From assembly GCF_004421185.1 (NCBI RefSeq), contig NZ_LXQB01000011.1, positions 1 to 64,000 on the forward strand: 64,000 nt of DNA. The letters run 5' to 3'. Below the pieces are notes generated by a model, which saw only the letters and a program-made list of their open reading frames with translations, had not been told where the DNA came from and did not search any database. The position numbers and the translations under genes were made by a program. This DNA comes from Methylacidiphilum sp. Yel. Its GTDB lineage: Bacteria; Verrucomicrobiota; Verrucomicrobiia; Methylacidiphilales; Methylacidiphilaceae. Position 1 is the first letter of the stretch; the number at the start of each line of letters is the position of its first letter. Below are positions 4,643 through 24,054 of this stretch, piece after piece.

Positions 4643-4647
4643 CATCT

Positions 4648-4761
4648 CTGGCAACGCCCTACTCTCACGTACCCTATCGGTACACTACCATCGGCGAAGA
4701 CATGTTTCACTTCCGTGTTCGGGATGGGAACGGGTGGTTCCATGTCTCTATGGTCACCAGA
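4648..4761 (-). rRNA. rrf: 5S ribosomal RNA
   Basis: The minus strand reads GGTGACCATAGAGACATGG at the 5' side, then the conserved CCCATCCCGAACACGGAAGT block, and ends with GTAGGGCGTTGCCAG. The ends pair as in 5S helix I. It is the last gene of the operon, about 80 bp after 23S and just before the terminator. End positions are good to a few bases. Confidence 0.93.
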
Positions 4762-4804
4762 CCTCTTCCTTTATACACAAAGGAAGAGGTCTAATGACCA
4801 TTTC

Positions 4805-4844
4805 GTTCTTTGAAAACTGCAGGTTAATTGAGAATAAAAGACCT

Positions 4845-4854
<10 letters not shown>
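4805..4854 (-). repeat. 3' arm of the 23S precursor processing stem
   Basis: The + strand GTTCTTTGAAAACTGCAGG here is an inverted copy of 7744-7762 on the other side of 23S, and the match continues through ATTGAGA-TAAAA. In the transcript the two arms would fold into the long helix that RNase III cuts to release pre-23S. Confidence 0.8.
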
Positions 4855-7710
<2,856 letters not shown>

Positions 7711-7716
7711 TTTAAG

Positions 7717-7762
7717 TACTCTTAAATGTTTTACTCTCAATCACCTGCAGTTTTCAAAGAAC
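7717..7762 (-). repeat. 5' arm of the 23S processing stem, with boxA-like sequence
   Basis: Inverted partner of 4805-4854. On the minus strand it contains GTTCTTTGAAAACTGCAGG. The GTTCTTTGAAAAC part also resembles the boxA antitermination element and is echoed in the 16S leader at 10075-10088. Confidence 0.75.
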
Positions 7763-7851
7763 ATATAGCCTTTTAAAACGCATCCTCTACCCCAATCATT
7801 AGAAAAACTTTGTCAGGAAAATCGGAATGCCTTTCTTTATCAATAACCATC

Positions 7852-7925
7852 TGGGCCTGACTGGGCTCGAACCAGTGACCCTGCGCTTATCAAGCGCATG
7901 CTCTGACCAACTGAGCTACAGGCCC
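7852..7925 (-). tRNA. tRNA-Ile (anticodon GAT)
   Basis: Minus-strand cloverleaf with acceptor GGGCCTG/CAGGCCC, D arm TAGCTCAGTTGG, anticodon loop CTTGATAA (GAT) and T loop TTCGAGC. CCA is not encoded. Position in the 16S-23S spacer is typical. Confidence 0.95.
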
Positions 7926-7959
7926 AATGCAGTCCCGACGTTTTGGGCCAACCGCATGC

Positions 7960-8035
7960 TGGTGGAGGCAAGGGGATTCGAACCCCTGACCTACAGCTTG
8001 CAAAGCTGCCGCTCTCCCAGCTGAGCTATGCCCCC
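7960..8035 (-). tRNA. tRNA-Ala (anticodon TGC)
   Basis: Minus-strand cloverleaf starting GGGGGCATAGCTCAGCTGGG, with anticodon loop TTTGCAA (TGC), a TTCGAAT T loop and an encoded CCA at 7960-7962. It is the first of the two spacer tRNAs. The 405 bp between it and 16S hold no gene, only the 16S processing stem at 8293-8334. Confidence 0.95.
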
Positions 8036-8292
8036 GATAACCTATCTGTAGGATTATCGTTTCGTTACTCCTTTTCCAAAGCATGCCATTGTGATCCATT
8101 CCGCTTTACCTAACAAAGTATTTTGTCGTTGCCTTTCTCTATCCCTCAGAAATGCCTATCCTTTGAGTATGAGATACACAACAACAAAATCATCTCACTA
8201 AGCTCAACATGGACCTTCTTCGCTTCTACTGAAACTGGATACTATTCTTAGCTGTTGGTTTTTGCTTTAAAAGGCTATGGTCGCCAGTTCAA

Positions 8293-8334
8293 CAGAACTG
8301 AGTTGTGCAGAATCCTTATTATAAGGTTGCAGTA
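8293..8334 (-). repeat. 3' arm of the 16S precursor processing stem
   Basis: The + strand GAGTTGTGCAGAATCCTTAT, followed by TAAGGTTGCAGTA, is nearly the reverse complement of 10014-10057 upstream of 16S. The arms would pair across the 16S gene to give the RNase III substrate. Confidence 0.8.
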
Positions 8335-8433
8335 TCATTTTTTTTACTCGCCTCCAATCTATGATTGCAAGGCAAGTAATCGACCTAAGCAACGAATATT
8401 TTCGGAATCTTACCGAATACTTTCGCTGCTTTA

Positions 8434-9967
<1,534 letters not shown>

Positions 9968-10013
9968 GAAAGATTCTTGGCTTAATGCTCTAAATTTTAG
10001 AGCAGGCCACAAA

Positions 10014-10057
10014 ACTACTGCAAAACCTTACATAAGGTTCTGCACAACTCAATCCTG
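10014..10057 (-). repeat. 5' arm of the 16S precursor processing stem
   Basis: Partner of 8293-8334. On the minus strand it reads GATTGAGTTGTGCAGAACC followed by TTATGTAAGGTTTTGCAGTA, a long imperfect helix across the 16S gene. Confidence 0.8.
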
Positions 10058-10074
10058 TTTTTAGGCGACCTAAA

Positions 10075-10088
10075 GTTATCAAAGAACA
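10075..10088 (-). promoter_or_regulatory. boxA-like antitermination element in the rRNA leader
   Basis: The minus strand reads TGTTCTTTGATAAC between the promoter and the 16S processing stem. This resembles the boxA consensus (TGCTCTTTAACA-type) and the GTTCTTTGAAAAC copy in the spacer ahead of 23S (7750-7762). It would bind NusB/S10 if functional, and the assignment is by similarity and position only. Confidence 0.5.
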
Positions 10089-10123
10089 ATTTTTTTATTA
10101 TTTTGCTTTCTCGTAGGGAGTTT

Positions 10124-10151
10124 ATCCTATTCACTCTCCCATTTTAGTCAA
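10124..10151 (-). promoter_or_regulatory. Probable sigma-70 promoter of the rRNA operon
   Basis: On the minus strand TTGACT (10151-10146) and TAGGAT (10129-10124) are separated by 16 bp. A strongly A/T-rich block lies upstream (about 10152-10200), as in an UP element. It is about 160 bp upstream of mature 16S. This is the best promoter match in the 331-bp gap between 16S and the divergent gene at 10299. Confidence 0.55.
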
Positions 10152-10298
10152 TAGATTTTTTTACTATAAAAAAGAAAATTTATTTTTCATTTCAAATATA
10201 ATGCTTCCTTGAGTAATTTCAAATAGCCAAATAATCTTGTTATAAGATTGTTCTCTGTTATTATTCTTCATTCTTTCTAATTATAACGCATCCAACAA

Positions 10299-12047
10299 AT
10301 GGATTCCATCAATAGCCATTCTCATATAGAAAAAAACCAAACCCCACCCCCCTTCCATAGGACAAATCTTTTTTATCCTTCTAAACAATGGTTTTTTTTG
10401 CCACCTTTCTTCCTATTCTTCTTTGCCTTTGTTCTGCTTTCCTCCGGATCTTATTCGCTACCACTCATTGATCGGGACGAACCAAGATTTGCAGAGGCGG
10501 CAAGGGGAATGCTTCAAAAAAAAGATTTCATCGTTCCCTTCTTCAATGGGGAGTTCAGGCTGGATAAGCCACCATTAATTTATTGGTTGATGGCCTTCTT
10601 TTATCAATTGTTTGGAGTTAATGAATTCTCTGCTAGACTCCCTTCGATCCTGTCTGCTTCAATTTTAGCCACGATTCTCTATAGCATAAGCAATGGCTAT
10701 TGTTCTCCCATCCGATGGGTGGCACCTATAGGTTTTATTGTCTCCGTGCAGACCCTTATTCATGGTAGATTAGCTACCGCCGATATGGTCCTGGTGCTCT
10801 TTGGAACACTTTCTCAATGGGCATTTTTAAATCTACTTAAAAAGAAGTCGCCTTTGTGGTTTTTTATTTTTTGGATTTCTCTTGCCCTCGGTTTTCTTGC
10901 TAAAGGACCTATAATTTGGTTCATAGCCTTAATTACTTATTTGCTTCACCGGTTTGTTTTCTGGAGGAAACCTCTACCTATTGCCAATATTGCTCCAATT
11001 CCAGGTTCGCTGTTGTGCCTTGCAATCGTCAGTTGCTGGGCTATCCCAGCATTGATCGAAACAAAAGGGCTTTTTTTTAAAATAGGCATTGGAGAACACA
11101 TTATTCATAGAGGAATAGAAGCGTTTGATAATCGCCCGTTCATTCCTTTCTATTATTTTCTATCTTCTTTAGTAAGTCTCTATCCAAACTCCGCATTTTT
11201 TGTATTTTTTTTTGAAACCTTAAAGAAAAACTGGTCAATGGAGAATAGTTTTTTGCTTTCCTGGTTTCTGGCTCCTATTCTCATTTTTTCTTTCTATGCC
11301 ACAGAGCTTCCCCATTATATCATGCCAGGCTTTCCCGCTTACTTCTTGTTAATAGCCCAAGGCATTGGCGAAGCCAAACATACCAGATTTTCTTTTCTTT
11401 TTGCTCTCTTTTTTCTTGGATTATTTACAATCCTTGCTTTAAGCCTCATATTTTTTTGCCTTTACCAAGGATGGCCTCAAGGCACCTCCCTGAAGGATAT
11501 TCCAATACTTGGGGGTTTGGTCCTTCTTTTTTTATCCCTTTTTGGTTTCACACTCCTTTCGTGTATAAAAAATCGTTCCATCTCTATGCCTTTTGCCTTC
11601 ATTATGGCCCTGCTGGCTGCTTTGCTTGCTTCTTCCTTCTCTTTTTTATCCAAAGACTTACGGTTTCTTTCCCTCACCATAAGACTCTCTGCTATGTTTA
11701 AAAACATGCCCGCTACATCGATAAACTGTGCCTGGGGATATACAGAGCCAAGCTTAGTTTTCTATTCGAATAGAAATTGGAGATGGGATACAGCTTTGCC
11801 AACTTCTCCTAAACCACCCTTTTTTTTGATCCAATTGGAAGAAGAAACCTCCCTTGGAAAAGGACTAATGCAGTCCTTTGAAAAGACCAAGCAGCCTCAA
11901 AAAAAACAAGAAAAAGCAATTGCATCGCCCCCCCTTTCTTTACCCTCTGCATTGAAAAATCAAGATAACCTCGGAGAAGGAAAGATAGAAGGATTAAATC
12001 TTGGAAGAATGTCGTGGTCAAAAATTTTTTATCATTATCATTATTGA
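10299..12047 (+). CDS. ArnT/PMT-family membrane glycosyltransferase
   Basis: 582 residues, with many hydrophobic segments from residue 31 on. The first periplasmic loop carries DRDEPRFAEAARGM (residues 58-71), then LDKPPLIYWLMAFFYQLFGV and SARLPS. These are the hallmarks of ArnT-like GT-C transferases, which use a polyprenyl-phosphate-linked sugar and modify lipid A or other envelope acceptors. The acidic pair D60/E61 matches the catalytic region. The C-terminal 130 residues are more polar. Substrate and acceptor cannot be deduced. It stands alone, divergent from the rRNA operon and about 225 bp before the nirK operon, which has no obvious link to it. Confidence 0.82.
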   Translation: MDSINSHSHIEKNQTPPPFHRTNLFYPSKQWFFLPPFFLFFFAFVLLSSGSYSLPLIDRDEPRFAEAARGMLQKKDFIVPFFNGEFRLDKPPLIYWLMAFFYQLFGVNEFSARLPSILSASILATILYSISNGYCSPIRWVAPIGFIVSVQTLIHGRLATADMVLVLFGTLSQWAFLNLLKKKSPLWFFIFWISLALGFLAKGPIIWFIALITYLLHRFVFWRKPLPIANIAPIPGSLLCLAIVSCWAIPALIETKGLFFKIGIGEHIIHRGIEAFDNRPFIPFYYFLSSLVSLYPNSAFFVFFFETLKKNWSMENSFLLSWFLAPILIFSFYATELPHYIMPGFPAYFLLIAQGIGEAKHTRFSFLFALFFLGLFTILALSLIFFCLYQGWPQGTSLKDIPILGGLVLLFLSLFGFTLLSCIKNRSISMPFAFIMALLAALLASSFSFLSKDLRFLSLTIRLSAMFKNMPATSINCAWGYTEPSLVFYSNRNWRWDTALPTSPKPPFFLIQLEEETSLGKGLMQSFEKTKQPQKKQEKAIASPPLSLPSALKNQDNLGEGKIEGLNLGRMSWSKIFYHYHY

Positions 12048-12273
12048 ACCTAGAGTGTTTCCTTTGAGAGATTCATTAAAAATGCTTAAACATAGAGAAG
12101 AGCCAAATCAACCTTGAAGATTTGTCGCCCAGTAAGATTTTTTGTTTTTTTCTAAATTTCTAAAATAAATTAAAAAATATTTCTTTGCCCATCAACTATT
12201 AGAACCAAAAAGTAACTTTCATCCTAAATTGTGCCTACTTGTTTTTCCTCTTTAAAATGATTTCTATGTACCC

Positions 12274-13353
12274 ATGCATTTTCAGAGATCCCCATGGTTC
12301 AAGAGCGCCATTTATACATTGCAAAAACTGCTTCTCTTTCTTTTGGCTCTCCTATTGTACTTTAATGGACTTCGAGAGACTCTCCGCAGTGAATCCCGTA
12401 CTTTTGAGCTCACTATAGAAGATACAATTATTACTCTAGTCAAAGATCAAAAATTCCACACTTTTGCGTTCAATGGCCAGGTTCCCGGTCCCCTTATCCA
12501 TGTTAAATATGGGGATGACTTAACTATCAAAGTCACAAACCTCACTACTCTGCCACATACGATCCACTGGCATGGAATTCTTCAAACCGGCACCTGGCAA
12601 ATGGATGGTGTGCCAAATACAACTCAGCCTGAAATAAAACCTGGAGACACCTTTACTTATCATTTCAAGGCTTTACCTGCAGGGACTTATTGGTATCACT
12701 GTCATGTCAATGTCAATGAACATGTATCGATGAGAGGAATGTGGGGCCCATTGATTGTCGATCCCCCCAAACCTAACCAATTAGAAAAAAAAGTGACCAA
12801 AGATTTTATATTGATGCTCAGCAGTTGGCCTTCTCACTGGGCAAGAAAACCTGGATATGGAGGCATTCCTGGAGATGTCGAAGACTATTTTACAATTAAC
12901 GCTAAAAGCTATCCTGAAACCCAACCAATCAGGGTAAAAAAAGGAGATTTCATCCGTTTTAGGATTTTTGCAACAAGTGATACTGTTCATTCTCTCCACA
13001 TTCACGGTCATGTGTTTTTGATTGGTTGTAAAGATGGACACTTCCTTCCAAATCCTATTGAAGCTGATACTGTCCTTATTTCTCCAGGAGAAAGATACGA
13101 TCTGTTTATGTACGCAGATAATCCGGGCCGTTGGATGGTTCACGATCATGTGGATGTTCATACTACCAATGGCGGCAATCCAATGGGAGGAATCATGACC
13201 ATAATCGAATACGATGAGGTCGAAAAGACTGATTCTTGGTATGAGTGGAAAGACAAAAAATTCATACCTGACTTTTTTTATGAAGAATCGATGAAAAAAC
13301 CCTATGGCCTTTTCATAAATCCAGCATTTAAAGGAGAACCTGCCCCCCAATAA
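12274..13353 (+). CDS. ncgA: Two-domain multicopper oxidase, NcgA-like
   Basis: 359 residues with a hydrophobic export signal (about 13-32). Domain 1 has HTIHWHG (His95, His98, His100) and WYHCHVNVNEHVSMRGM (His142, Cys143, His144, His150, Met153/156), which supply a type 1 copper and half of a trinuclear site. Domain 2 has HSLHIHGH (239-246) and HDHVDVH (290-296). Cys is replaced by Asp291 there, so it lacks a type 1 copper. This makes it a two-domain oxidase with the blue copper in domain 1. It is the first gene of a tight four-gene operon with two cytochromes c and NirK, the same composition as ncgABC-nirK of ammonia oxidisers. The role there is nitrite/NO tolerance, and the exact substrate is unknown. 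Confidence 0.82.
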   Translation: MHFQRSPWFKSAIYTLQKLLLFLLALLLYFNGLRETLRSESRTFELTIEDTIITLVKDQKFHTFAFNGQVPGPLIHVKYGDDLTIKVTNLTTLPHTIHWHGILQTGTWQMDGVPNTTQPEIKPGDTFTYHFKALPAGTYWYHCHVNVNEHVSMRGMWGPLIVDPPKPNQLEKKVTKDFILMLSSWPSHWARKPGYGGIPGDVEDYFTINAKSYPETQPIRVKKGDFIRFRIFATSDTVHSLHIHGHVFLIGCKDGHFLPNPIEADTVLISPGERYDLFMYADNPGRWMVHDHVDVHTTNGGNPMGGIMTIIEYDEVEKTDSWYEWKDKKFIPDFFYEESMKKPYGLFINPAFKGEPAPQ

Positions 13354-13355
13354 AA

Positions 13356-14054
13356 ATGAAAATTGGTTACTTTTATTTTCTTTCTTTATTTTTCTATTTA
13401 GCTGCTAACCGGCTCATTGCTGACGATGGAATGCAGATACTGCAAGCTCAGTGTTCTAGCTGTCATGCCATAACCAAACCAACCGATAATTCATTGGAAA
13501 GATTATGGACAAGAAAAGGACCCGATCTTTACTATGCTGGTCTAAAATTTCAAAAAAAATGGCTGGTAAAATGGTTACAACAACCAACTATCATTCGACC
13601 AGCGGGAGAATTTTATTTTAAGCATATTAAAAAGACTCCAAACGGGGATGAAATAGATTCTTCATCTTTAAGCCCCCATCCAAAACTTTCTCCTAATGAA
13701 GCAGAATCGGTCGCTAATGCTTTAATGAGTTTAAAACCCGAAGGGCTGATTATTCCCGGCAAATTTAAAAACGAACCAGTCAATCCTTCGATTGGTGCAA
13801 TGTTTTTTGGTAAATTAAGGGGTTGCTCAGCCTGTCATGCCACAAAAGAGGGTGGAGGAGGGCTGTCAGGACCAGAGCTTTATGACGCAGGTGACCGACT
13901 GCAAGGAGATTTCATTTACTCATTTATTGAAGATCCACAGAAGTTTGAACCACATATCTGGATGCCTAAGCTTGAGCTTGCAGAAGCTGATCTGCAAAGA
14001 CTTTCATCTTATCTCCTGAGTCTTCATAGATCTCAACAAAAGGAGGGAAAATGA
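13356..14054 (+). CDS. ncgB: Diheme cytochrome c of the nirK operon
   Basis: 232 residues with an N-terminal signal peptide (about 1-22) and two haem c sites, CSSCH (33-37) and CSACH (157-161), so it is a periplasmic diheme electron carrier. Each haem motif begins its own cytochrome c domain. It begins 2 bp after the multicopper oxidase stop and overlaps the next gene by 4 bp (ATGA), implying translational coupling. By position it matches one of the NcgB/NcgC cytochromes. It probably shuttles electrons between the respiratory chain and the copper enzymes. Which of the two ncg cytochromes it corresponds to is uncertain. Confidence 0.8.
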   Translation: MKIGYFYFLSLFFYLAANRLIADDGMQILQAQCSSCHAITKPTDNSLERLWTRKGPDLYYAGLKFQKKWLVKWLQQPTIIRPAGEFYFKHIKKTPNGDEIDSSSLSPHPKLSPNEAESVANALMSLKPEGLIIPGKFKNEPVNPSIGAMFFGKLRGCSACHATKEGGGGLSGPELYDAGDRLQGDFIYSFIEDPQKFEPHIWMPKLELAEADLQRLSSYLLSLHRSQQKEGK

Positions 14055-14470
14055 GAGGACTGGATCCAATCGATTTTTTTACCAAACAGATTCAACGCTC
14101 TCTTCTCTTTGTTCTTGTGCTGCTGTTGCCTACTTCCTTTATTCCTCCTGTGGCAAGAGCCGATGATGCTAAATGGACTAAAATAGAAAAGCTATATAAC
14201 ACCTATTGCGTCCAATGCCATGGCATAGAAAGAAATGGAACCGGAATTAATTCCAAATTTATGACTGTCCAACCGAGGGATCACACAGATCCGAAGGAGA
14301 TGGGAAAAATTCCTGACGAAGAAATTATAAAAGCCATTACTTATGGCGGGATTTCTGTGCAAAAATCAATCCTCATGCCTGCTTGGGGTAAAGTCCTTAC
14401 ACAGCAAGAAATTTATGAATTAAAAGATTACTTAAGACATGTCTGTAATTGTGGAGGAGAAAGCAAATAA
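14051..14470 (+). CDS. ncgC: Monoheme cytochrome c of the nirK operon
   Basis: 139 residues. A signal sequence with a long hydrophobic core (18-33) ends near ARADDA. The haem site is CVQCHG (Cys53, Cys56, His57), and the likely sixth ligand is Met109 in ILMPAWGK. This is a small class-I cytochrome c. It overlaps the diheme cytochrome gene by 4 bp and precedes nirK by 22 bp. Likely electron donor to NirK or acceptor from the multicopper oxidase. The ncg name is by operon position and is tentative. Confidence 0.8.
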   Translation: MRGLDPIDFFTKQIQRSLLFVLVLLLPTSFIPPVARADDAKWTKIEKLYNTYCVQCHGIERNGTGINSKFMTVQPRDHTDPKEMGKIPDEEIIKAITYGGISVQKSILMPAWGKVLTQQEIYELKDYLRHVCNCGGESK

Positions 14471-14492
14471 ACCAAACCAAAAAGGAGGAGAA

Positions 14493-15422
14493 ATGAAAAA
14501 GCGATTCATAAAACACCTAATGGCATTGCTCATAACTGTTTGCACCATTTCGATAGGAATGGCAAAAACAGTTTCAGTAACATTCCATGGAAAAGAAGCT
14601 GATGTGGTAATTGATAATAAAGGAACTAAATACTCAGCCTGGACATTTAATGGACAAGTGCCAGGGCCCTTAGTGAGAGTGACCGAAGGAGATATCGTTG
14701 ATTTCACATTGATTAATGAAATAACAAACAAGAAATCTCATGCTATGGATTTTCATGCTGCTCAATTAGATGCTGCTAAGGATTTTGGCCAAATAAGGCC
14801 TGGGGAAACAAAGCATTACACCTTCAAAGCTAACTATCCGGGAGTGTTTTTCTATCATTGCGGTGCCGATCCCATGGTTCAGCATATTGCAAGAGGGATG
14901 TTTGGAGTAATTATAGTAGATCCAAAAAATCCATACGCTATGCCCAAAGCTGATAGAGAATATGTTCTTGTCCAATCAGAGATTTATTCCAATCCTGATG
15001 ACGAAAAAAGTTTGATGGAGAGCAAGTGGGATTTTGTCGGATTCAATTTTTGTAAGTTTAAGTATGATCCAGTACATGATGAAAGAGCAACAACTTGGTT
15101 ACAAGCAAAACCTGGAGAAAGAGTTAGAATATATTTTGTCAACGCTGGCCCTAATGAGTTTGCTTCTTTTCATCCAATCGCCGGTATTTGGGACAGGGTC
15201 TATGTGTCAGGAAATCCCAAAAATGTTCTCTATGGCCTTCAATCTTTTACTGTTGGACCAGGGGATGGAGCCATTTTTGATCTCATTTCCCCCGTAGAAG
15301 GAGCTAATGCCATAGTGACGCATTCTATGAAGGAGGCTTTGACTGGAGCTATTGCTATAATCATGTTTACAAAAGATGCCGATCCTAAAATGGGACATGG
15401 AGATCAGATCCTTGTGCGTTAA
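14493..15422 (+). CDS. nirK: Copper-containing nitrite reductase (NO-forming)
   Basis: 309 residues. The ATG at 14493 is preceded by AAAGGAGGAG with ideal spacing and starts a clean signal peptide, so the longer frame from 14439 is not used. Cupredoxin domain 1 holds the type 1 copper ligands His83, Cys123, His131 and Met136. The type 2 site is His88 and His122, with His277 (VTHSMKEA) from domain 2. The catalytic pair is Asp86 and His227 (FASFHPIAG). All reaction residues are present. The type 1 loop is one residue shorter than classic NirK (Cys-x7-His instead of Cys-x8-His). Reduces nitrite to NO in the periplasm. Last gene of the operon. Confidence 0.9.
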   Translation: MKKRFIKHLMALLITVCTISIGMAKTVSVTFHGKEADVVIDNKGTKYSAWTFNGQVPGPLVRVTEGDIVDFTLINEITNKKSHAMDFHAAQLDAAKDFGQIRPGETKHYTFKANYPGVFFYHCGADPMVQHIARGMFGVIIVDPKNPYAMPKADREYVLVQSEIYSNPDDEKSLMESKWDFVGFNFCKFKYDPVHDERATTWLQAKPGERVRIYFVNAGPNEFASFHPIAGIWDRVYVSGNPKNVLYGLQSFTVGPGDGAIFDLISPVEGANAIVTHSMKEALTGAIAIIMFTKDADPKMGHGDQILVR

Positions 15423-15581: not shown

Positions 15582-15989
15582 TCATGAACAGCCATTGTGA
15601 AAGGAGCAAATTTCAGTTTCTGCTTCAACAGTACTTACTTGAGTCTGATTAAATTCTATTTCTTTTTGTAATTCTTCTACACTTTTTAACACTTTCATAA
15701 ATTTTTTACCAAAAGATGTTAGTTTATATTCTACTTTTGGCGGAAGAGTGGGATAAACAGTTCTTTCCACTATTCTCCATTCACAAAGCTTCTTCAAAAG
15801 ATCGTTAAGAACTTTTGTCGTTATCCCCGGAATATTCTTTTTCATTTGACCTGGTCTACAGATATTCTGACAAATCAAATCCAGGACCGAAACTGTCCAT
15901 TTGCACTTAAAAATGTTTTCTACCAACCGGGCAGCTTCCGAATTCCTGGTCGGTATCACAACTTCCCTTTTAGGCCGCTCGTTGTTCAT
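15582..15989 (-). CDS. HxlR-family transcriptional regulator, cysteine-rich
   Basis: 135 residues with the HxlR winged-helix pattern: CKWTVSVLDLI, IPGITTKVLNDLLKKL, then YPTLPPKVEYKLTSFG. HxlR proteins bind promoters as dimers and several sense oxidants or electrophiles through cysteines. This one has six: Cys29, 40, 44 and 69, plus a C-terminal ICSFHNGC (128, 134). It is convergent with nirK, about 160 bp away, where ammonia oxidisers use NsrR instead. Control of the nirK operon is an inference from position and cysteine content. The 159-bp gap between the two genes holds no clear terminator. Confidence 0.8.
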   Translation of the reverse strand: MNNERPKREVVIPTRNSEAARLVENIFKCKWTVSVLDLICQNICRPGQMKKNIPGITTKVLNDLLKKLCEWRIVERTVYPTLPPKVEYKLTSFGKKFMKVLKSVEELQKEIEFNQTQVSTVEAETEICSFHNGCS

Positions 15990-16122
15990 CTTTTAGCAAT
16001 AAGGATAAGTTTCTTTAAAAAAATTGTCAATTCTATATCATCTTCTTGCTACTTTTAATATAGGGATTATTACTTATTTTGCTTACAGATGTATTAAAAA
16101 AAAACGAAACAGCTGCTGTAAT

Positions 16123-17697
16123 TTATAGGGAAGAAAGTGAAACGCAGGTATCTTGAACTATATCTAACTTTTTTGGATAATCCACTATCCAATGAGCTCC
16201 TCTACTCTCTTTTCTTTGCAGAGCACTTTCAATAATAACAGCTGCTACCAAGACAATATTCTTGGCTTTGACTTCAAGTAAGGATACTATTTTTTCTTTT
16301 TTTTCTTTATTTTTGAAAAAATCGATCTTCAGCTCAATTTCCTTTTTTGCCTTTTCCAGTCCAGCAACCGACCTAACAATACCAACACACTCCCACATTA
16401 ATTTTCTTGTTTCCTCGATAACTATCAAGATATCACTGGCACTTTGCTCTTTTTTTTCAACCACAGGACAACACGCAAAATTCCAATCAATACGCGTTCT
16501 TAAAACATTATTTTGGCTTATTGAAGATTTTGCCGCTCTTCCAGCTACGACTATTGCTTCTAACAAAGAATTGCTCGCTAACCTATTTGCTCCATGAAAA
16601 CCTGTGCAGGCCACCTCTCCTGCTGCCCATAATCCAGCAATAGAAGTCCTTCCATAAGTATCTGTAGCTACACCTCCGCACTGATAATGTGCAGCCGGAG
16701 CAATGGGCACAAGATCTTTAGACATATCAATCCCCTGGCTCAAACAATAAGAAAAAATATAAGGGAACCTTTCCTCCAACCATTCTCTTTGTTTTCCCCG
16801 AATATCCAAATAAACATAGGGAATATTTTTTTCTTTCATTTCCAAAAAAATCGCCCGACTAACAATGTCTCTGGGTGCTAGTTCTCCCCTCGGATCGGCA
16901 CACTTTAAAAAATGTTCCCCGCTTTGGTTTATAATTTTTGCTCCTTCTCCTCTTACCGCCTCACTAATGAGAAATTTTTGGGAACTTTGTTGAAAAAAAC
17001 ACGTAGGATGAAATTGAATCATCTCCATGTTTTTCAACAAAGCTCCAGCTCGATACGCCATGGCAATTCCATCCCCTGTTGCACTCGATGGATTAGTCGT
17101 ATGGAGATAAATTCCTCCGCAGCCACCAGTAGATAACAACGTATGGGGCGAAAAAAAGGCTCTAGTAATCTTTTTTGTTTTATCAAAAACATAGGCCCCA
17201 AAACAAATCTTATCGATGACAATAAGATCAATAGCCCATTGGTTTTCCCAGAGGAGAATTTGTTTCCTTTTCTTTGCTTCTTTTTTTAATGCTTCAATAA
17301 TTGCCATGCCCGTATGGTCCTTAACATGATAGATCCTTCGATGAGAATGTCCCGCTTCTAATCCCAAGTCATAATTTCCTTCGGCAGTCTTTGTAAATGG
17401 AACGCCAAGGCGTATTAAGTCCGCTATCCGCATAGGTGCTTCTTCGACAAAAGATTTAACAACGTCGGCCTTGCACAATCCATCTCCAGCTTTGAGTGTA
17501 TCGGAAATATGCGATTCAAATGAATCTTGTGGGGAACTTACACAAGCTATTCCTCCCTGAGCATACCAAGAGCTGGAATGAGTAAAACTGCCTTTTAGTA
17601 AGACATCCACTCTGCCAAAACGTGAAGTTTCCAGGGCAAAAAACAATCCTGCTATACCTCCTCCAATGACAAGAAAATCCGTTTCAACTCTTTCCAT
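16123..17697 (-). CDS. nadB: L-aspartate oxidase
   Basis: 524 residues. The N-terminal dinucleotide fold DFLVIGGGIAGLFFALE binds FAD. SSWYAQGGIACV follows, then HSHRRIYHVKDHTG in the substrate region and TGFHGANRLASNSLLEAIV, the family signature. It oxidises aspartate to iminoaspartate, the first step of de novo NAD synthesis. It can use fumarate or oxygen as acceptor. The gene follows yidC by about 30 bp on the same strand, so it may ride on the rpmH-rnpA-yidD-yidC transcript. No nadA or nadC is in the window. About 25 bp downstream is a palindrome and T run that could terminate, but the loop is too small to be convincing. Confidence 0.93.
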   Translation of the reverse strand: MERVETDFLVIGGGIAGLFFALETSRFGRVDVLLKGSFTHSSSWYAQGGIACVSSPQDSFESHISDTLKAGDGLCKADVVKSFVEEAPMRIADLIRLGVPFTKTAEGNYDLGLEAGHSHRRIYHVKDHTGMAIIEALKKEAKKRKQILLWENQWAIDLIVIDKICFGAYVFDKTKKITRAFFSPHTLLSTGGCGGIYLHTTNPSSATGDGIAMAYRAGALLKNMEMIQFHPTCFFQQSSQKFLISEAVRGEGAKIINQSGEHFLKCADPRGELAPRDIVSRAIFLEMKEKNIPYVYLDIRGKQREWLEERFPYIFSYCLSQGIDMSKDLVPIAPAAHYQCGGVATDTYGRTSIAGLWAAGEVACTGFHGANRLASNSLLEAIVVAGRAAKSSISQNNVLRTRIDWNFACCPVVEKKEQSASDILIVIEETRKLMWECVGIVRSVAGLEKAKKEIELKIDFFKNKEKKEKIVSLLEVKAKNIVLVAAVIIESALQRKESRGAHWIVDYPKKLDIVQDTCVSLSSL

Positions 17698-17727
17698 TAT
17701 TTCTATTAAAACCTAAAATGAATGATT

Positions 17728-19503
17728 TTATTTCAATAACGAAATTTTATGAGAGGCTTTGTGCTTCTTAACCCGGTGTAAAACAGGGAGAGGTTTTTTC
17801 AAATTTCGATAAGTTTGTACAATTGTTACTAAGTTATTAACTGTCCAGTAAAGTGACAGAGCCGAAGCAAAATTATAGAAAAATACAAGGAAAAAGACAG
17901 GCATCCATTGAAAAACTTTTAATTGAGGATTGTCTGAAGCTTGAGGAGTCATCCGAGACAGAAGAATTTGTGTACCAACCATTATTAATGGCAGAGGATT
18001 AATATCCAAATTAAGCATCGACAAATGATAAACAGTATCTGGTTGCGTTAAATCTTTAATCCATAAAAAAGATTGGTTTCTTAATTCGACGGAACCCTGA
18101 AGCATTGTATAAAAACCGATAAAAATGGGTACTTGAACTAGCATTGGTAAACAACCACCAAGAGGATTCACTCCATATTCTCTATAAAGCTTCATCATTT
18201 CTGCTTGCATCTTATCAGGCTGGTCTTTGTAGCGTGCTTGAAGTTCTTTGAGTTTTGGAGAAAGCGCTTGCATGGCTTTCATATTGCGGTTTGCGCTTGA
18301 TTGTAGCGGCCAAAAAATCCCTTTCAGTAGTAAGGTAAATAGAATGATGTCTAAGCCATAATTAGGGATGAAAGAGTGAAAATGGACCATGCACCACACC
18401 AAGGGTTTCACTACCCATCCCCACATCCCATACTCCATGACTTTTTCAATATGATCACCAAGTTTGTGAAGTCGGGCATATTCTTTAGGGCCACTATAAA
18501 CTTTAAACTGAACGCTTAATATAGAGTTTGGTTCTAAGGATAGCTCTGAAAAACGCGCCCAGGCTTTTAGACCTACCGGTATACGGCTTTGGCCTTGCTG
18601 TTCCAAAGGAAATTGGGAAAGCTCCACAGGGATAGCTTCAATTTGAAAGGGAGGAAGACTCGATGGAGGAATAACAACAATGGTAAAATATTGGTTCTTA
18701 ACAGCGGCCCAACGGAGAGATTCTGTCGGACTAGTAATAACGGTTCGAGGACCTCTCCAGTAAAACAATCCTAAGAAGCCTGCAGGATTGAAGTCTGGAA
18801 GGCCAATGCGACCAAATCGAGCTCCCTTGAGAGTGAGCCAGTTAGCTGCGAGAGTCTGGATCGCATCTTTGGCATGGATTGGAGAAGCTAAACCTATATT
18901 GAGTCTTGATGCTGGAAGATTTACGGAAGCTGAAGATTTATTGACAAGCCTCTGTTCCATAATAATCTGGTAATCTTGACCAAGAGTAAAAACCCTTTCC
19001 AAGCTTACTCCTCCAGAAAGATCTCTTTTAAAAATGACTTTCCCCTCTTTAGTTTCGGATTGATATCCACTAAGATGATACTTCCCATCCCAACCAGAAA
19101 GATTCAGTAGAGGTTCTTCATCAAAACGATTTAAAAGAATGTTTTCTCTTCCCTTTGGACCTCGAAAAAAGTGCTCTTTTAGTTCAATATTTTGAATTGC
19201 TCCTCCCCATGAAGTCAAAGCCACACGAATTTTATCGTTTTCAAGATAACTTAGCGTTTCTTTTCCAAGAGCAGGTGATTTTTCGAAACTTTCAAGGGGA
19301 CTTAGAACCGGGCTTTCCTCATGATCCTTAGGAGCAGGTGCGTTGGTGGAGAGCTCTTCAGAGGCAGAAGACTGTGGAAGCGAAGAAGGAGATTGCTCAC
19401 TCTGAGTTGGTTGGTTCCTAACGTAATGATATTCAACGTAGATTTGCCAAACCAAAAGCAAAACAAGACAAATGCCAAAACCAATCCAACCTTTTTTGTC
19501 CAT
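17728..19503 (-). CDS. yidC: Membrane protein insertase YidC
   Basis: 591 residues, the Gram-negative long form. An N-terminal anchor (about 5-22) leads into a large periplasmic beta domain (about 70-370) with a Pro/Ser/Glu-rich linker at 33-70. The C-terminal core is membrane-embedded: NYGLDIILFTLLLKGIFWPL, then NPLGGCLPMLVQVPIFIGFY and the final helices ending in LYWTVNNLVTIVQTY. The C-terminus is basic (RVKKHKASHK), typical of ribosome contact. It inserts and folds inner-membrane proteins with or without SecYEG. The start is the ATG at 19503. It follows yidD in the conserved rpmH-rnpA-yidD-yidC order. Confidence 0.95.
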   Translation of the reverse strand: MDKKGWIGFGICLVLLLVWQIYVEYHYVRNQPTQSEQSPSSLPQSSASEELSTNAPAPKDHEESPVLSPLESFEKSPALGKETLSYLENDKIRVALTSWGGAIQNIELKEHFFRGPKGRENILLNRFDEEPLLNLSGWDGKYHLSGYQSETKEGKVIFKRDLSGGVSLERVFTLGQDYQIIMEQRLVNKSSASVNLPASRLNIGLASPIHAKDAIQTLAANWLTLKGARFGRIGLPDFNPAGFLGLFYWRGPRTVITSPTESLRWAAVKNQYFTIVVIPPSSLPPFQIEAIPVELSQFPLEQQGQSRIPVGLKAWARFSELSLEPNSILSVQFKVYSGPKEYARLHKLGDHIEKVMEYGMWGWVVKPLVWCMVHFHSFIPNYGLDIILFTLLLKGIFWPLQSSANRNMKAMQALSPKLKELQARYKDQPDKMQAEMMKLYREYGVNPLGGCLPMLVQVPIFIGFYTMLQGSVELRNQSFLWIKDLTQPDTVYHLSMLNLDINPLPLIMVGTQILLSRMTPQASDNPQLKVFQWMPVFFLVFFYNFASALSLYWTVNNLVTIVQTYRNLKKPLPVLHRVKKHKASHKISLLK

Positions 19504-19609
19504 AACAAATAGTTTGTTAATTACTAAAGAAAAACCAAGATTCCTTTCTTCTATCGATATTTACAAGAGATTTTTCCATTTTAAAAAAAATTTCTACTCT
19601 AGATGAAAC

Positions 19610-19876
19610 TTATTTTTTTATCCTGATTTTTTTCTGAGAGATTTTTACCTCATCGGGAACAGGATCCCATCCTTTACCTCCCCAAGGATGACATCTCAGC
19701 AACCTTTTGGATGCAAGTAATAGCCCTACTATCACCCCATGTTTCTGTACCGCCTCTTTGCAATACTGAGAACAGGTTGGATGATACCGACAAACACCAT
19801 AAATTCCAAGGGTTTGACGAATCGAACTTAGGCCGTATCTGTAAAAGGATAAAAGAAAAAAAATTATTTTTTTCAT
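19610..19876 (-). CDS. yidD: Membrane protein insertion efficiency factor YidD
   Basis: 88 residues with the family pattern: an N-terminal amphipathic/hydrophobic stretch ([14 protein letters not shown]), [19 protein letters not shown] and [16 protein letters not shown]. Three cysteines and the CHPWG box are conserved. It assists YidC-dependent insertion at the inner membrane. Its start codon overlaps the end of rnpA by 4 bp, so the genes are translationally coupled. Confidence 0.92.
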
Positions 19877-20262
19877 ACTCTATTAAAAAAATGTATCGCT
19901 TTTTCGCCTAATTCGATCATATCTTTTTTCATTTCTTTAAAATTTGCGGTCAAAATCCTTTCTTTTGCAATCCAACCAAAGGAGTAGGGCACAAGCTTAA
20001 AGGGGGCGTGTTGTCTAAATATCTCCCTCATTCTTCTTTTAATAAGATTTCTTTTGGCAGCTCCGCGGATCTTTTTCGAAACAGCAAAAAAAACTTTAGG
20101 AAAAGAATCGATTTCTCTTGGTAAAAGAAAAAGGATAAAAAAAGGAGAAGAAAACTTTTTCCCATGAGAAAAAAAGAGGGCAATTTCGTCTTTTTTTTTA
20201 GCAATGAATCGCCTCGGTAATTTATTGTTCAAGCCGGTTGAGCAACCAAAATAGACCATCAA
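19873..20262 (-). CDS. rnpA: Ribonuclease P protein component
   Basis: 129 residues. The signature is [20 protein letters not shown], the RNA-binding RNR motif of RnpA. It is the protein cofactor of RNase P in tRNA 5' maturation. It lies 34 bp downstream of rpmH and overlaps yidD. The N-terminal 14 residues before [12 protein letters not shown] look like an extension. A start slightly downstream would need a non-ATG codon, so the ATG at 20262 or 20259 is kept. Confidence 0.9.
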
Positions 20263-20296
20263 ATATACTAAAAGCTAAAACGCTCGGAAAAAAAAA

Positions 20297-20470
20297 TCAC
20301 GAAGAAGTGTGACGACTAAATTTTCTTTCTGTGTTTTTAGGGACTAACCGCCATCTCCCTTTTTTTCTTCTCCTTTTCAATATTAATCGGCCACCTTTAG
20401 TCTTTGAACGATTTAAAAACCCATACTGTCTTTTTCTTGTCCTTTTGGAGGGTTGGTATGTCCTTTTCAT
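20297..20470 (-). CDS. rpmH: 50S ribosomal protein L34
   Basis: A 57-codon gene read directly from the minus strand: [20 protein letters not shown], then [20 protein letters not shown]. It is Arg/Lys-rich and matches L34, which is usually 44-50 residues. Here a short tail ([15 protein letters not shown]) is added. It is the first gene of the rpmH-rnpA-yidD-yidC cluster, with only about 38 bp to the polyprenyl synthase upstream. No dnaA is adjacent. Confidence 0.95.
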
Positions 20471-20508
20471 AAGATCCTTCCCATTTTAACAAATTAAAAA
20501 TAAATACA

Positions 20509-21585
20509 CTATAATACTGACTGGGCATTGACAAGTTCTGCTAAATGCTTTCCTAAAATATTGCCCACATCGAGCAAATATTCTTTCTCATCACTTTCTG
20601 GTAAGTGATCTAGCTCTTTTTTCCCTTGCTCAAGGAAATTCATAGCCGTCTGAAACGTCTTTTGGAGAACTCCTTCCTTTACGATCCATAATTGAATTTT
20701 TTCCCAATCTTCAGAGACGCCATTTTCAAAAATTTCGACAATGGTTCTTTTCATTTCCTCGGAGCCTTGTTGGTAAAGATAAAGGATCGGCAAAGTCAAC
20801 TTCCCTCCTCCTAAATCTGTTCCCAATGTCTTTCCCACATTTTCTTCATTTCCGAAAAGATCCAAACAATCATCATAAATTTGATAGGATGAACCTAGTG
20901 CTTGGCCATATCTGCCCAAAGCTTCGGAAATAGATTGGGAAGCCGAATTCAGTCTTGCGGCAAGTTCACATGGAATACGAAAGAGTTCGCCTGTTTTCAT
21001 TTGAATGATTTTCAAATATTCCTCTTCCAATAAATTCCAATCAAATCGTCTTCTTGTCTGAAGAATCTCTCCGCTGCAAACCACACAGACACCGTTAGCC
21101 ACACTTTTAATAATGTCAGGATGCAGCCGACAACATACCTTAAGAGCCTGTGCAAACAAACTATCACCAAGAAGTACTGAAATTTCTGAACCCCATCTGG
21201 AAGTCACCGAAGGAAGTCCTCGACGCATAGAAGCCCCATCAAGGATATCGTCATGGACAAGAGTCGCCAAATGGATCATCTCAACAACAACTGCAAGATA
21301 AAGATGATCCTCAATTATTCCTCCACTTCCCTTTGCAGAAAGCAAAACAAGAAGAGGCCTAATTCTCTTGCCTTCACTCTCTAAAACATAGCGAAAGAAT
21401 GGAACAACACCCGCATCAAATTCTTCCGCTTGGTTTAAAATTTCCCTGTCTATCCAGCCAAGATAGTCTTTGAGTTGACTTGTCAAATTATGAAAAATAT
21501 CCGGTTTTGATGCAATCGGTTTTGCATTGTTTTTAAATATTGTCATCTTTGCTTCATTGTTGCGGGCGATCTTATTTTCGATCAT
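20509..21585 (-). CDS. Long-chain trans-polyprenyl diphosphate synthase
   Basis: 358 residues. The first aspartate motif is LVHDDILDGASMRRG (Asp112, 113, 116) and the second is YQIYDDCLDLFG (Asp238, 239, 242). GKRIRPLLVLLSA near 72 binds isopentenyl diphosphate. This is the all-alpha isoprenyl synthase fold of IspB/HepT-type enzymes, which make the quinone side chain. Chain length cannot be read safely from sequence alone. About 34 residues precede the family core. An internal Met14 is an alternative start. Confidence 0.88.
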   Translation of the reverse strand: MIENKIARNNEAKMTIFKNNAKPIASKPDIFHNLTSQLKDYLGWIDREILNQAEEFDAGVVPFFRYVLESEGKRIRPLLVLLSAKGSGGIIEDHLYLAVVVEMIHLATLVHDDILDGASMRRGLPSVTSRWGSEISVLLGDSLFAQALKVCCRLHPDIIKSVANGVCVVCSGEILQTRRRFDWNLLEEEYLKIIQMKTGELFRIPCELAARLNSASQSISEALGRYGQALGSSYQIYDDCLDLFGNEENVGKTLGTDLGGGKLTLPILYLYQQGSEEMKRTIVEIFENGVSEDWEKIQLWIVKEGVLQKTFQTAMNFLEQGKKELDHLPESDEKEYLLDVGNILGKHLAELVNAQSVL

Positions 21586-21735
21586 AAACAGCAGCCAGCG
21601 CCACTGATATCTCTAGTAAAATTGCCCATCAGTTTTTCTCTTTTAAAGAAAAACCATAAGATAAATACAAGCCGTCCCCTTGCGTCAAGTTGGTTAGCCT
21701 AACAGCAATAGCAGCTTTCAAACCAATTTGACCCT

Positions 21736-21963
21736 TTAGGCCGTTGCATTGGAAGAATCCTTACAAGCATCGATCATGGAATCGAGTGCTTTTCTAAATT
21801 CTTCCAATCCAGGTGCAGGAATGATAATTGCATCCCTTCTTCCTCTTACATCTTCAGTAATTCGAAGAAACCTCCCCCTTCCATTTTCTTTTAGATCAAA
21901 GAAGAAGTTCTTTCTTTCAACAGTAATTTTTTCACTTTTTATGTTTTTTTGCTCGCCATCCAT
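21736..21963 (-). CDS. PUR-alpha-like nucleic-acid-binding protein (DUF3276)
   Basis: 75 residues. KITVERKNFFFDLKENGRGR followed by FLRITEDVRGRRDAIIIPAP and a C-terminal helix (EEFRKALDSMIDAC) matches the small bacterial PUR-alpha-like/DUF3276 proteins, known in Bacteroidota, Spirochaetota and Verrucomicrobiota. They form a beta-beta-beta-beta-alpha unit and bind single-stranded DNA or RNA. It stands alone upstream of the polyprenyl synthase, on the same strand. Its target is unknown. Confidence 0.85.
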   Translation of the reverse strand: MDGEQKNIKSEKITVERKNFFFDLKENGRGRFLRITEDVRGRRDAIIIPAPGLEEFRKALDSMIDACKDSSNATA

Positions 21964-22073
21964 TTCTAGAACTCCTCGCTGGTTTTAGAGTAATGTTTAA
22001 AACGCCTATTTGTCAAATCCTCGTTTTTGATCTTTAAAAGAAACCGTTTATACTTTGCCTTTTCTCTTTTAAT

Positions 22074-23330
22074 GTGCAAAATATTTTTTTGTGCCATAAA
22101 GCATCGTTTATTGTGACTAAACAAAAATCACATCTAAGAGGTTTCCTTCTCCTTTCTTTTGTTATTCATTTGGCTATTACTTTATTTCTAGGATCGGGAA
22201 TTTTAAAACAATTTTTTCCAAAAACTCCTCCTCCTGATTCCCCACCACCAACCTTAACCATGCTTGAAATGGTCCAACCTGAAAGTTTTATTCCTACCGA
22301 AGAATGGCAAAAAACAGATCATCCTGACCCCCACGCTCTTCTTCAATCCGATCGTTCCACCGCTTTAAGGAGCCAAGAAGCTCCGCAAAAACCGGACTCT
22401 CCTCTTCCTCAACTTTCGGGAGATCCCCGCTCATCAATGAGCTATATTGATCAGCCTGCCTCAAGGCCTTCCCCTCCGAGGCCTAGCGGCCGATCCACTC
22501 CAGCTCAAAAACAAGCAGTTCCCACAAAACAAATAGAACAAGAAAACCAACAGAATCAAGCTTCTTCAAACAATGAAGCCAAAATGGAAAACAAATCCAA
22601 GCAAGAGACTAAAGAAAATCACCTCCAGAAAGACAATCAAAAACTGACTACAAAATCTGAAGAGCCAACCCCTACAGAAAAACCTTCCGAAGACAACCCC
22701 TCCAAAGTGCTAGAAAAACTTCTCAAAGAGATTAACAAACCATCTGAAGAGTTTTTAAAGAAAGAAGATCCAAATGGAGATCCTCTCATGCCCTTTCAGA
22801 ACAAAACTCCCAAAGAGCCAGCAAAAGCCACCGAAAAGGAAACTTCAAAAAATGCAACCGCAGCTTCTACCACTTCCAAACAAACGGATCCTAGCCAACC
22901 CAACTCTTCTTCCCAATTTAGTCCTCCCCCCAATCCCCCTCCTTCTCCTGAATCCTTTGAAAAGCATAGAATGCAAATCTCCGGAGGACGTACAGCTGAA
23001 CTAGGGCCTGTTTCTCCCTCTGCACGTGAAACCGAGCTTGGTCGATATAAAGCAAGACTTTATCGTGCTATTGGCTCCAGATGGTACTTAGAAGTAGAAC
23101 AAAATATGGGGTTGCTTGCCATAGGCTCAGTCAGAGTTCGGTTTTATGTCCAATCCGATGGTACTATAAGCAGTCTCCAAGTTATCAGTGAAGATGGCAT
23201 AACCGAAGTTTTAAGATCAATATCTCTTGATTCTATTCGTTTATCGGCCCCTTTCGGTCCTTTTTCTGAAGCCATGAAAGGACAGATTGGAGATGGATTT
23301 TGGGAAGAAATTACCTTTACCATTTACTAA
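22074..23330 (+). CDS. TonB/TolA-like energy-transducing protein
   Basis: 418 residues. An N-terminal membrane anchor (about 22-42) is followed by a long Pro/Gln/Lys/Glu-rich spacer (about 46-310) that could span the periplasm. The compact C-terminal domain (ELGRYKARLYRAIGSRWY to WEEITFTIY) has TonB_C-type features, including VRVRFYVQSDGTISSLQV. It precedes exbB and exbD homologues, so it should couple the proton motive force to an outer-membrane process, either TonB-type transport or Tol-type envelope maintenance. I cannot separate TonB from TolA on sequence alone. The spacer is strongly low-complexity. Confidence 0.82.
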   Translation: MQNIFLCHKASFIVTKQKSHLRGFLLLSFVIHLAITLFLGSGILKQFFPKTPPPDSPPPTLTMLEMVQPESFIPTEEWQKTDHPDPHALLQSDRSTALRSQEAPQKPDSPLPQLSGDPRSSMSYIDQPASRPSPPRPSGRSTPAQKQAVPTKQIEQENQQNQASSNNEAKMENKSKQETKENHLQKDNQKLTTKSEEPTPTEKPSEDNPSKVLEKLLKEINKPSEEFLKKEDPNGDPLMPFQNKTPKEPAKATEKETSKNATAASTTSKQTDPSQPNSSSQFSPPPNPPPSPESFEKHRMQISGGRTAELGPVSPSARETELGRYKARLYRAIGSRWYLEVEQNMGLLAIGSVRVRFYVQSDGTISSLQVISEDGITEVLRSISLDSIRLSAPFGPFSEAMKGQIGDGFWEEITFTIY

Positions 23331-23379
23331 TAGAAGAACAGTGCTATTTTTTTTGAATAATATCGCTTGAGGAGAGCTT

Positions 23380-24054
23380 ATGTCGTTTGCCATCTCTTTT
23401 AACTGGAACCAACTATCATCTTATTTTGCCATAAAGAATTTTATCGAAGGAAGCGGTCTATTCATCTATCCAGTCATTCTGTGTTCGATTATCGGACTAG
23501 CAATCATTCTTGAAAGGTCCTTTTCTTTACGTCGTTCGAAAATTATTCCAAAGAAATTAGTCAAAGCCATTGAAGAGCTTGGCTGGGGAGAAAATCCCGA
23601 ACGCATAGAAAAACTTTGTCAGGATCAAAAGTCCACTTTGAGTCGGCTCGTTTATCTTTGTCTACAAAATATGACTTGGTCGAAATTCGAGAATTCTGAA
23701 GCTCTTCAAGTCAAAGCCCGCTCTGAAATAGCTCAATTGGAAAAAGGATTAGTTATTTTGGAAATTATTGTGGGAATAGGCCCTTTGCTTGGCTTGCTAG
23801 GCACCTTATCGGGACTTATTACTATCTTTGGTAATGTCGGAACCCATGGCATGGCAACCCAAGGAGCGGCAATAGCTCATGGAATTTCTGAAGCTCTTCA
23901 CACTACCCTTGCAGGATTGGGAATTGCGGTTCCCTGCTTAATTGCTCACAGTCTTTTTTCTAGAAAAGTTGAAGCTTATGCTGTTGAGATGGAAAATATT
24001 TGTTCTGAGCTTTTAGCAAAAATTTATACGGAAGCCCCTACCCCTGAATATTGA
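23380..24054 (+). CDS. exbB: ExbB/TolQ-type proton channel subunit
   Basis: 224 residues with three predicted membrane segments: YPVILCSIIGLAIIL near 26-40, then a pair around 130-150 (GIGPLLGLLGTLSGLITIF) and 175-195 (TTLAGLGIAVPCLIAHSLF). The GPLLGLLGT and TTLAGLGIAVP motifs are the MotA/TolQ/ExbB signature. Together with ExbD it forms the inner-membrane motor for the TonB-like protein upstream, 49 bp away. A Shine-Dalgarno GAGGAG precedes the ATG. Confidence 0.9.
   Translation: MSFAISFNWNQLSSYFAIKNFIEGSGLFIYPVILCSIIGLAIILERSFSLRRSKIIPKKLVKAIEELGWGENPERIEKLCQDQKSTLSRLVYLCLQNMTWSKFENSEALQVKARSEIAQLEKGLVILEIIVGIGPLLGLLGTLSGLITIFGNVGTHGMATQGAAIAHGISEALHTTLAGLGIAVPCLIAHSLFSRKVEAYAVEMENICSELLAKIYTEAPTPEY

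Follow-up and report, generated by a model that had tools for sequence, protein, structure and literature searches.

The 64,000-nucleotide stretch of Methylacidiphilum sp. Yel DNA analysed here (the window) carries the four genes ncgA, ncgB, ncgC and nirK. We consider it probable that they form a complete ncgABC-nirK operon, taken up from a proteobacterium by an ancestor of Methylacidiphilum, and that this operon has kept the same site in the genus and would have tolerance of nitrite and NO as its net effect.

Gene content and metal sites of the cassette

All four genes are intact and lie on one strand of the window between positions 12274 and 15422. The features of the locus are as follows.

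ncgA, 12274-13353, forward strand: 359 aa; multicopper oxidase of the blue copper type with two domains; hydrophobic segment at the N-terminus, either an export signal or an anchor
ncgB, 13356-14054, forward strand: 232 aa; dihaem cytochrome c with signal peptide
ncgC, 14051-14470, forward strand: 139 aa; monohaem cytochrome c with signal peptide
nirK, 14493-15422, forward strand: 309 aa; copper nitrite reductase of the N. europaea type, predicted to be periplasmic
HxlR-family winged-helix regulator gene, 15582-15989, reverse strand: Pfam HxlR, 68 bits; convergent with nirK
Promoter-proximal island 5' of ncgA, 12172-12246, forward strand: conserved, with the palindrome AAAGTAACTTT at 12209-12219

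ncgA and ncgB are 2 bp apart, ncgB and ncgC overlap by 4 bp and 22 bp separate ncgC from nirK; the tight packing described in an initial annotation of this DNA agrees exactly with the ORF coordinates. Judged from the spacing, the four genes are predicted to be a single operon. The span given in that annotation (12274-15422) takes in all four but leaves out a fifth gene of the locus in this genus, that of the HxlR-type regulator. For nirK the start at 14493 was preferred over that of the ORF lister (14439) because it is preceded by a Shine-Dalgarno-like AAGGAGGAG and agrees with the N. europaea start. Elsewhere in the window, a complete rRNA operon (16S, two tRNAs, 23S and 5S) occupies positions 4646-9965 of the reverse strand and comes within a few hundred bases of the glycosyltransferase gene that precedes the cassette.

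Pfam and NCBIfam models identify the products as a multicopper oxidase, two cytochromes c and a copper nitrite reductase, and the domain content first described (a two-domain copper oxidase, proteins with two and one CxxCH motifs and a NirK-type copper oxidase) was found in full. NirK scores 195 bits against the NirK equivalog model, under the curated cut-off of 296, as would be expected for a divergent NirK. Among solved structures, the ncgA product is most similar to the entry 3g5w (513 bits, 69% identity) and the nirK product to the entry 4kns (473 bits), respectively the blue copper oxidase and the NirK of Nitrosomonas europaea; a search of the solved structures found no close relative of NcgB or NcgC. 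With N. europaea proteins as the best structures, and with the gene order and haem counts of N. europaea, the ncgABC-nirK identity proposed initially is upheld.

The residues named here were assigned as copper ligands from what is established for the two enzyme families. Candidates for the type-1 copper site in domain 1 of NcgA are H95, C143, H150 and M156, and the histidine pairs of the trinuclear site (H98/H100, H142/H144, H242/H244 and H290/H292) are 100% conserved among relatives. Because the HCH of a type-1 site is replaced by HDH in domain 2, NcgA fits a type-C two-domain multicopper oxidase, with a type-1 copper site predicted in domain 1 only. In NirK (309-residue numbering) the type-1 ligands H83, C123, H131 and M136, the type-2 ligands H88, H122 and H277 and the catalytic residues D86 and H227 are all invariant or 99% conserved. 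NcgB has CxxCH motifs at residues 33-37 and 157-161, with M203 and H108 invariant across 76 sets, and its N-terminal part gives a weak FixO-like match; NcgC has its single motif at residues 53-57, with M109 and M84 invariant among relatives. Gene order and packing, the orthology and ligands of NcgA, the haems of NcgB and NcgC and the type of NirK all agree with membership of the ncgABC-nirK group.

Carriers, horizontal origin and loss in Kam1

Scanning genomes with an alignment of NcgA yielded 80 loci. Comparison of gene order in related genomes, which the initial annotation had put forward as a check, finds the four genes collinear as ncgA-ncgB-ncgC-nirK in more than 70 other loci and in nearly all loci with sufficient flank; nirK is inverted relative to this order at one locus (L109). 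NcgB is dihaem and NcgC monohaem in all of the complete sets (76 of 76), and the 4-bp ncgB/ncgC overlap is common to most relatives. The identical gene order in so many loci and the constant haem counts place the cassette far beyond chance.

Most carriers belong to Pseudomonadota (Thiobacillus, Nitrosomonas, Nitrobacter, Sphingopyxis, Duganella and others); further loci come from Nitrospirota, to a deep clade of which L093 belongs, and single ones are labelled as other groups. The acidobacterial genome KBS 96 contains the entire cassette, preceded by an Rrf2 gene (L038), likely a second transfer out of Pseudomonadota. Mentions of the operon in Nitrobacter (PMC5080386) and in Zetaproteobacteria (PMC3603346) are consistent with this wider distribution. 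Accounts of the operon usually centre on nitrifiers, and the initial annotation tied it to ammonia oxidisers, which proves too narrow: an HAO-type gene is found in 7 of the 49 carrier genomes (strongly in six) and an AMO/PMO gene in 6 of the 49. Such absences are soft in draft genomes, and the N. europaea assembly used itself shows no AMO; even so, the picture is clear, and most sampled carriers are not ammonia oxidisers. The link to ammonia is therefore not general, and the role of the operon must be a more general handling of nitrite and NO.

With three pmoA-type genes, a single HAO-type gene and Methylacidiphilum as its nearest genomes, the window's genome is indeed that of the verrucomicrobial methanotroph that had been supposed. 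It also has a norB-like gene, which we infer to be norB from its position compared with M. fumariolicum SolV. The cassette nirK is the only NirK in this genome; the second, distant NirK type of the genus was not found there. Three further Methylacidiphilum genomes (G008, G009 and G010) have the cassette at the same site, between a PMT-type glycosyltransferase gene and nadB/yidC. We take G009 to be SolV and G010 to be M. infernorum V4, a strain in which the cassette NirK is likewise the only one, with the nitrite reductase content given in PMC6688271. The second NirK type (G009:1919793, probably Mfumv2_1973) is only 34% identical to the cassette NirK; in G008 the gene of this distant type (L018, G008:1940956-1941786) has one in-frame TAG and so may be a pseudogene. 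In Methylacidimicrobium the only NirK is a distant one (32-36% identity), and among the 388 sampled Verrucomicrobiota genomes no genus besides Methylacidiphilum has an NcgA at a comparable level.

In a tree of the concatenated proteins the four Methylacidiphilum sets are nested in Pseudomonadota, as sister to two metagenome-assembled genomes (MAGs) from Centralia thermal soil, with a support of 100. Single trees of NcgA and NirK, a check also raised by the initial annotation, agree with this placement, the NirK node being weak (86). A tree that holds Methylacidiphilum outside the proteobacterial group can be rejected (p = 0.006). On these trees the cassette is of horizontal origin, the Methylacidiphilum ancestor having taken the operon from a proteobacterium. 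Other sources were considered: a clade of Methylacidiphilum with Nitrosomonas, as expected for an origin from ammonia oxidisers, is rejected by the AU test (p = 0.0009), as is the acidobacterial copy L038 alone as the source (p = 0.0003), and vertical inheritance within Verrucomicrobiota is unsupported, with 3 of 388 genomes in one genus. A transfer of nirK was proposed earlier from a blastn match to N. eutropha (PMC6688271); the wider sample points to a proteobacterial lineage different from Nitrosomonas and to transfer of the whole operon. One of the two Centralia genomes, Centralia_MAG_89 (that of L031), has a pmo/amoCAB operon (L123:2769-5999, reverse strand) whose A subunit is divergent, scoring 186 bits against the AMO model. 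An HAO-type gene was not found in this genome; mis-binning is possible.

In M. kamchatkense Kam1 (G011) no nitrite reductase was found (PMC6688271). This is loss by one clean deletion and not primary absence. Positions 7942-12619 and 16019-23999 of the window align to one continuous Kam1 stretch, with an overlap of about 5 bases at the joint (G011 946,0xx; about 9026-9030 of L120). The deletion spans about 3.4 kb: it took away the final two thirds of ncgA and the whole of ncgB, ncgC, nirK and the HxlR gene, and the residual start of ncgA is also frameshifted. Since Kam1 lives without it, the cassette is not essential. Transfer from a proteobacterium followed by deletion in Kam1 gives a simple account of why nitrite reductases are patchy among verrucomicrobial methanotrophs.

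Regulatory surroundings of the operon

An Rrf2/NsrR-type gene adjoins the operon in 39 of the 68 relatives for which 2 kb or more of upstream sequence is available. None lies beside the cassette in the window or in the G008-G010 loci, where the NsrR-controlled arrangement is absent; the window's genome has a single Rrf2 gene, shared with Kam1, which is probably an unrelated housekeeping regulator. An HxlR-type gene adjoins the cassette downstream in all four Methylacidiphilum carriers, and it was deleted together with the cassette in Kam1. We do not accept this co-occurrence as proof of function: one deletion removed both in one genome, and it is weak evidence because a single deletion explains a single absence. 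That HxlR belongs to the cassette in other phyla can be dismissed, with no HxlR gene near any of the 80 relatives.

Of the 75 positions in the island upstream of ncgA (12172-12246), 58 do not vary among five Methylacidiphilum genomes, Kam1 being one of them, whereas the surrounding intergenic DNA has diverged, and the island is still kept in Kam1 despite the loss of the operon. The palindrome within it occurs once in the window against 0.23 expected and is perfect in four of the five genomes. From this conservation the palindrome or the island may be an operator, and we hypothesize that the HxlR protein might regulate the cassette by acting on the island. Scans for promoters and terminators gave fewer matches than shuffles. 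A change of switch on entry into Methylacidiphilum, from an Rrf2/NsrR-type repressor sensitive to nitrite or NO to an HxlR-type regulator on the conserved AAAGTAACTTT, would have produced a periplasmic nitrite/NO unit that responds, in an extreme acidophile, to another signal than before; we offer this only tentatively and regard it as rather doubtful.

Probable role and comparison with known systems

By analogy, the most likely role of the cassette is periplasmic nitrite/NO detoxification. The protective effect is suggested by N. europaea mutants, as summarised in PMC5080386 and PMC6967387; the former states that ncgABC and nirK both give nitrite tolerance and that nirK is harmful without ncgABC. 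NirK would be exported and would swap one electron between nitrite and NO, and NcgB and NcgC would ferry this electron to or from the respiratory chain. NcgA, as an O2-using type-C multicopper oxidase, would supply or drain oxidising equivalents so that NO does not build up: it would act as an O2-linked valve and the cytochromes as wires, letting NirK work without NO poisoning. The nitrite and NO would stem from pMMO oxidising ammonia and from HAO making NO, a stress that would be acute at pH 2-3, where nitrite would be partly HNO2, and downstream NorB would convert NO to N2O. The SolV nirK Mfumv2_1120 is transcribed (PMC6688271), and it is the second, distant NirK of SolV that has drawn most attention (PMC5623727, PMC6688271).

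NirK could also run from NO to nitrite and so be the missing NO oxidase after HAO, with the electrons passing via NcgC and NcgB to the chain or via NcgA to O2. The HAO of methanotrophs makes NO, and reverse NirK has been proposed as the NO oxidase (PMC8498564, PMC6688271); an O2-using oxidase within the operon suits the oxidative direction, and the window's genome encodes HAO. This role is, however, inapplicable to the carriers other than the 7 of 49 with HAO, and Kam1 has kept its HAO despite losing the cassette, so we judge it improbable. Kam1 on the one hand and SolV and V4 on the other are a natural strain pair for probing the role of the operon, including that of NirK as the missing NO oxidase.

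Respiratory denitrification, in which NirK would reduce nitrite as an alternative acceptor at low O2, with the cytochromes as donors and NcgA incidental, seems less probable still. SolV does use nitrite more quickly without O2 and makes N2O (PMC5623727, PMC8498564), but the SolV nirK examined for denitrification is the other copy, Mfumv2_1973. Many carriers come from lineages of facultative denitrifiers such as Thiobacillus; an O2-dependent oxidase in the operon nevertheless fits anaerobic respiration poorly, and in N. europaea under O2 limitation nirK expression goes down and ncgA up (PMC6967387). A main function of NcgA in copper or phenol oxidation, with the operon serving copper handling and NirK recruited to another redox task, is very improbable: NcgA shares the multicopper oxidase fold with CopA/CueO-type proteins, and laccase-like activity is known in two-domain relatives such as 2zwn, but it matches the N. 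europaea blue copper oxidase far better than CopA/CueO models, is constantly accompanied by NirK and the cytochromes and has no copper-resistance genes among the cassette neighbours.

With nitrite/NO detoxification as the preferred reading, the cassette can be set beside the systems already described. It shares with the N. europaea ncgABC-nirK operon (L051) the four genes, their order, the haem counts and the 4-bp ncgB/ncgC overlap, at identities of about 62-69% for NcgA, 55% for NcgB, 51% for NcgC and about 66% for NirK. In N. europaea an Rrf2/NsrR-type gene lies upstream in divergent orientation, whereas the window has none there and has an HxlR-type gene convergent downstream; the host, unlike N. 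europaea, is a thermoacidophilic verrucomicrobial methanotroph. The nearest relatives are the cassettes of Centralia_MAG_89 and Centralia_MAG_231 (L031 and L032; NcgA 74-75% and NirK 74-77% identity), which are in proteobacterial hosts, one with its own pmo/amoCAB operon and without HAO, and unlike those of Methylacidiphilum have an Rrf2 gene immediately upstream. The SolV NirK Mfumv2_1120, presumably the gene in G009, is 98% identical and at the same locus as in the window; PMC6688271 treated this nirK alone and covered neither the operon nor its wider set of carriers nor the closer sister among Proteobacteria. The second NirK type of SolV is a copper nitrite reductase of the same genus but, at 34% identity, is unlike the cassette NirK. 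The cassette is a further member of the known ncgABC-nirK operon type, with a clear history of transfer and loss and a possible change of regulator.
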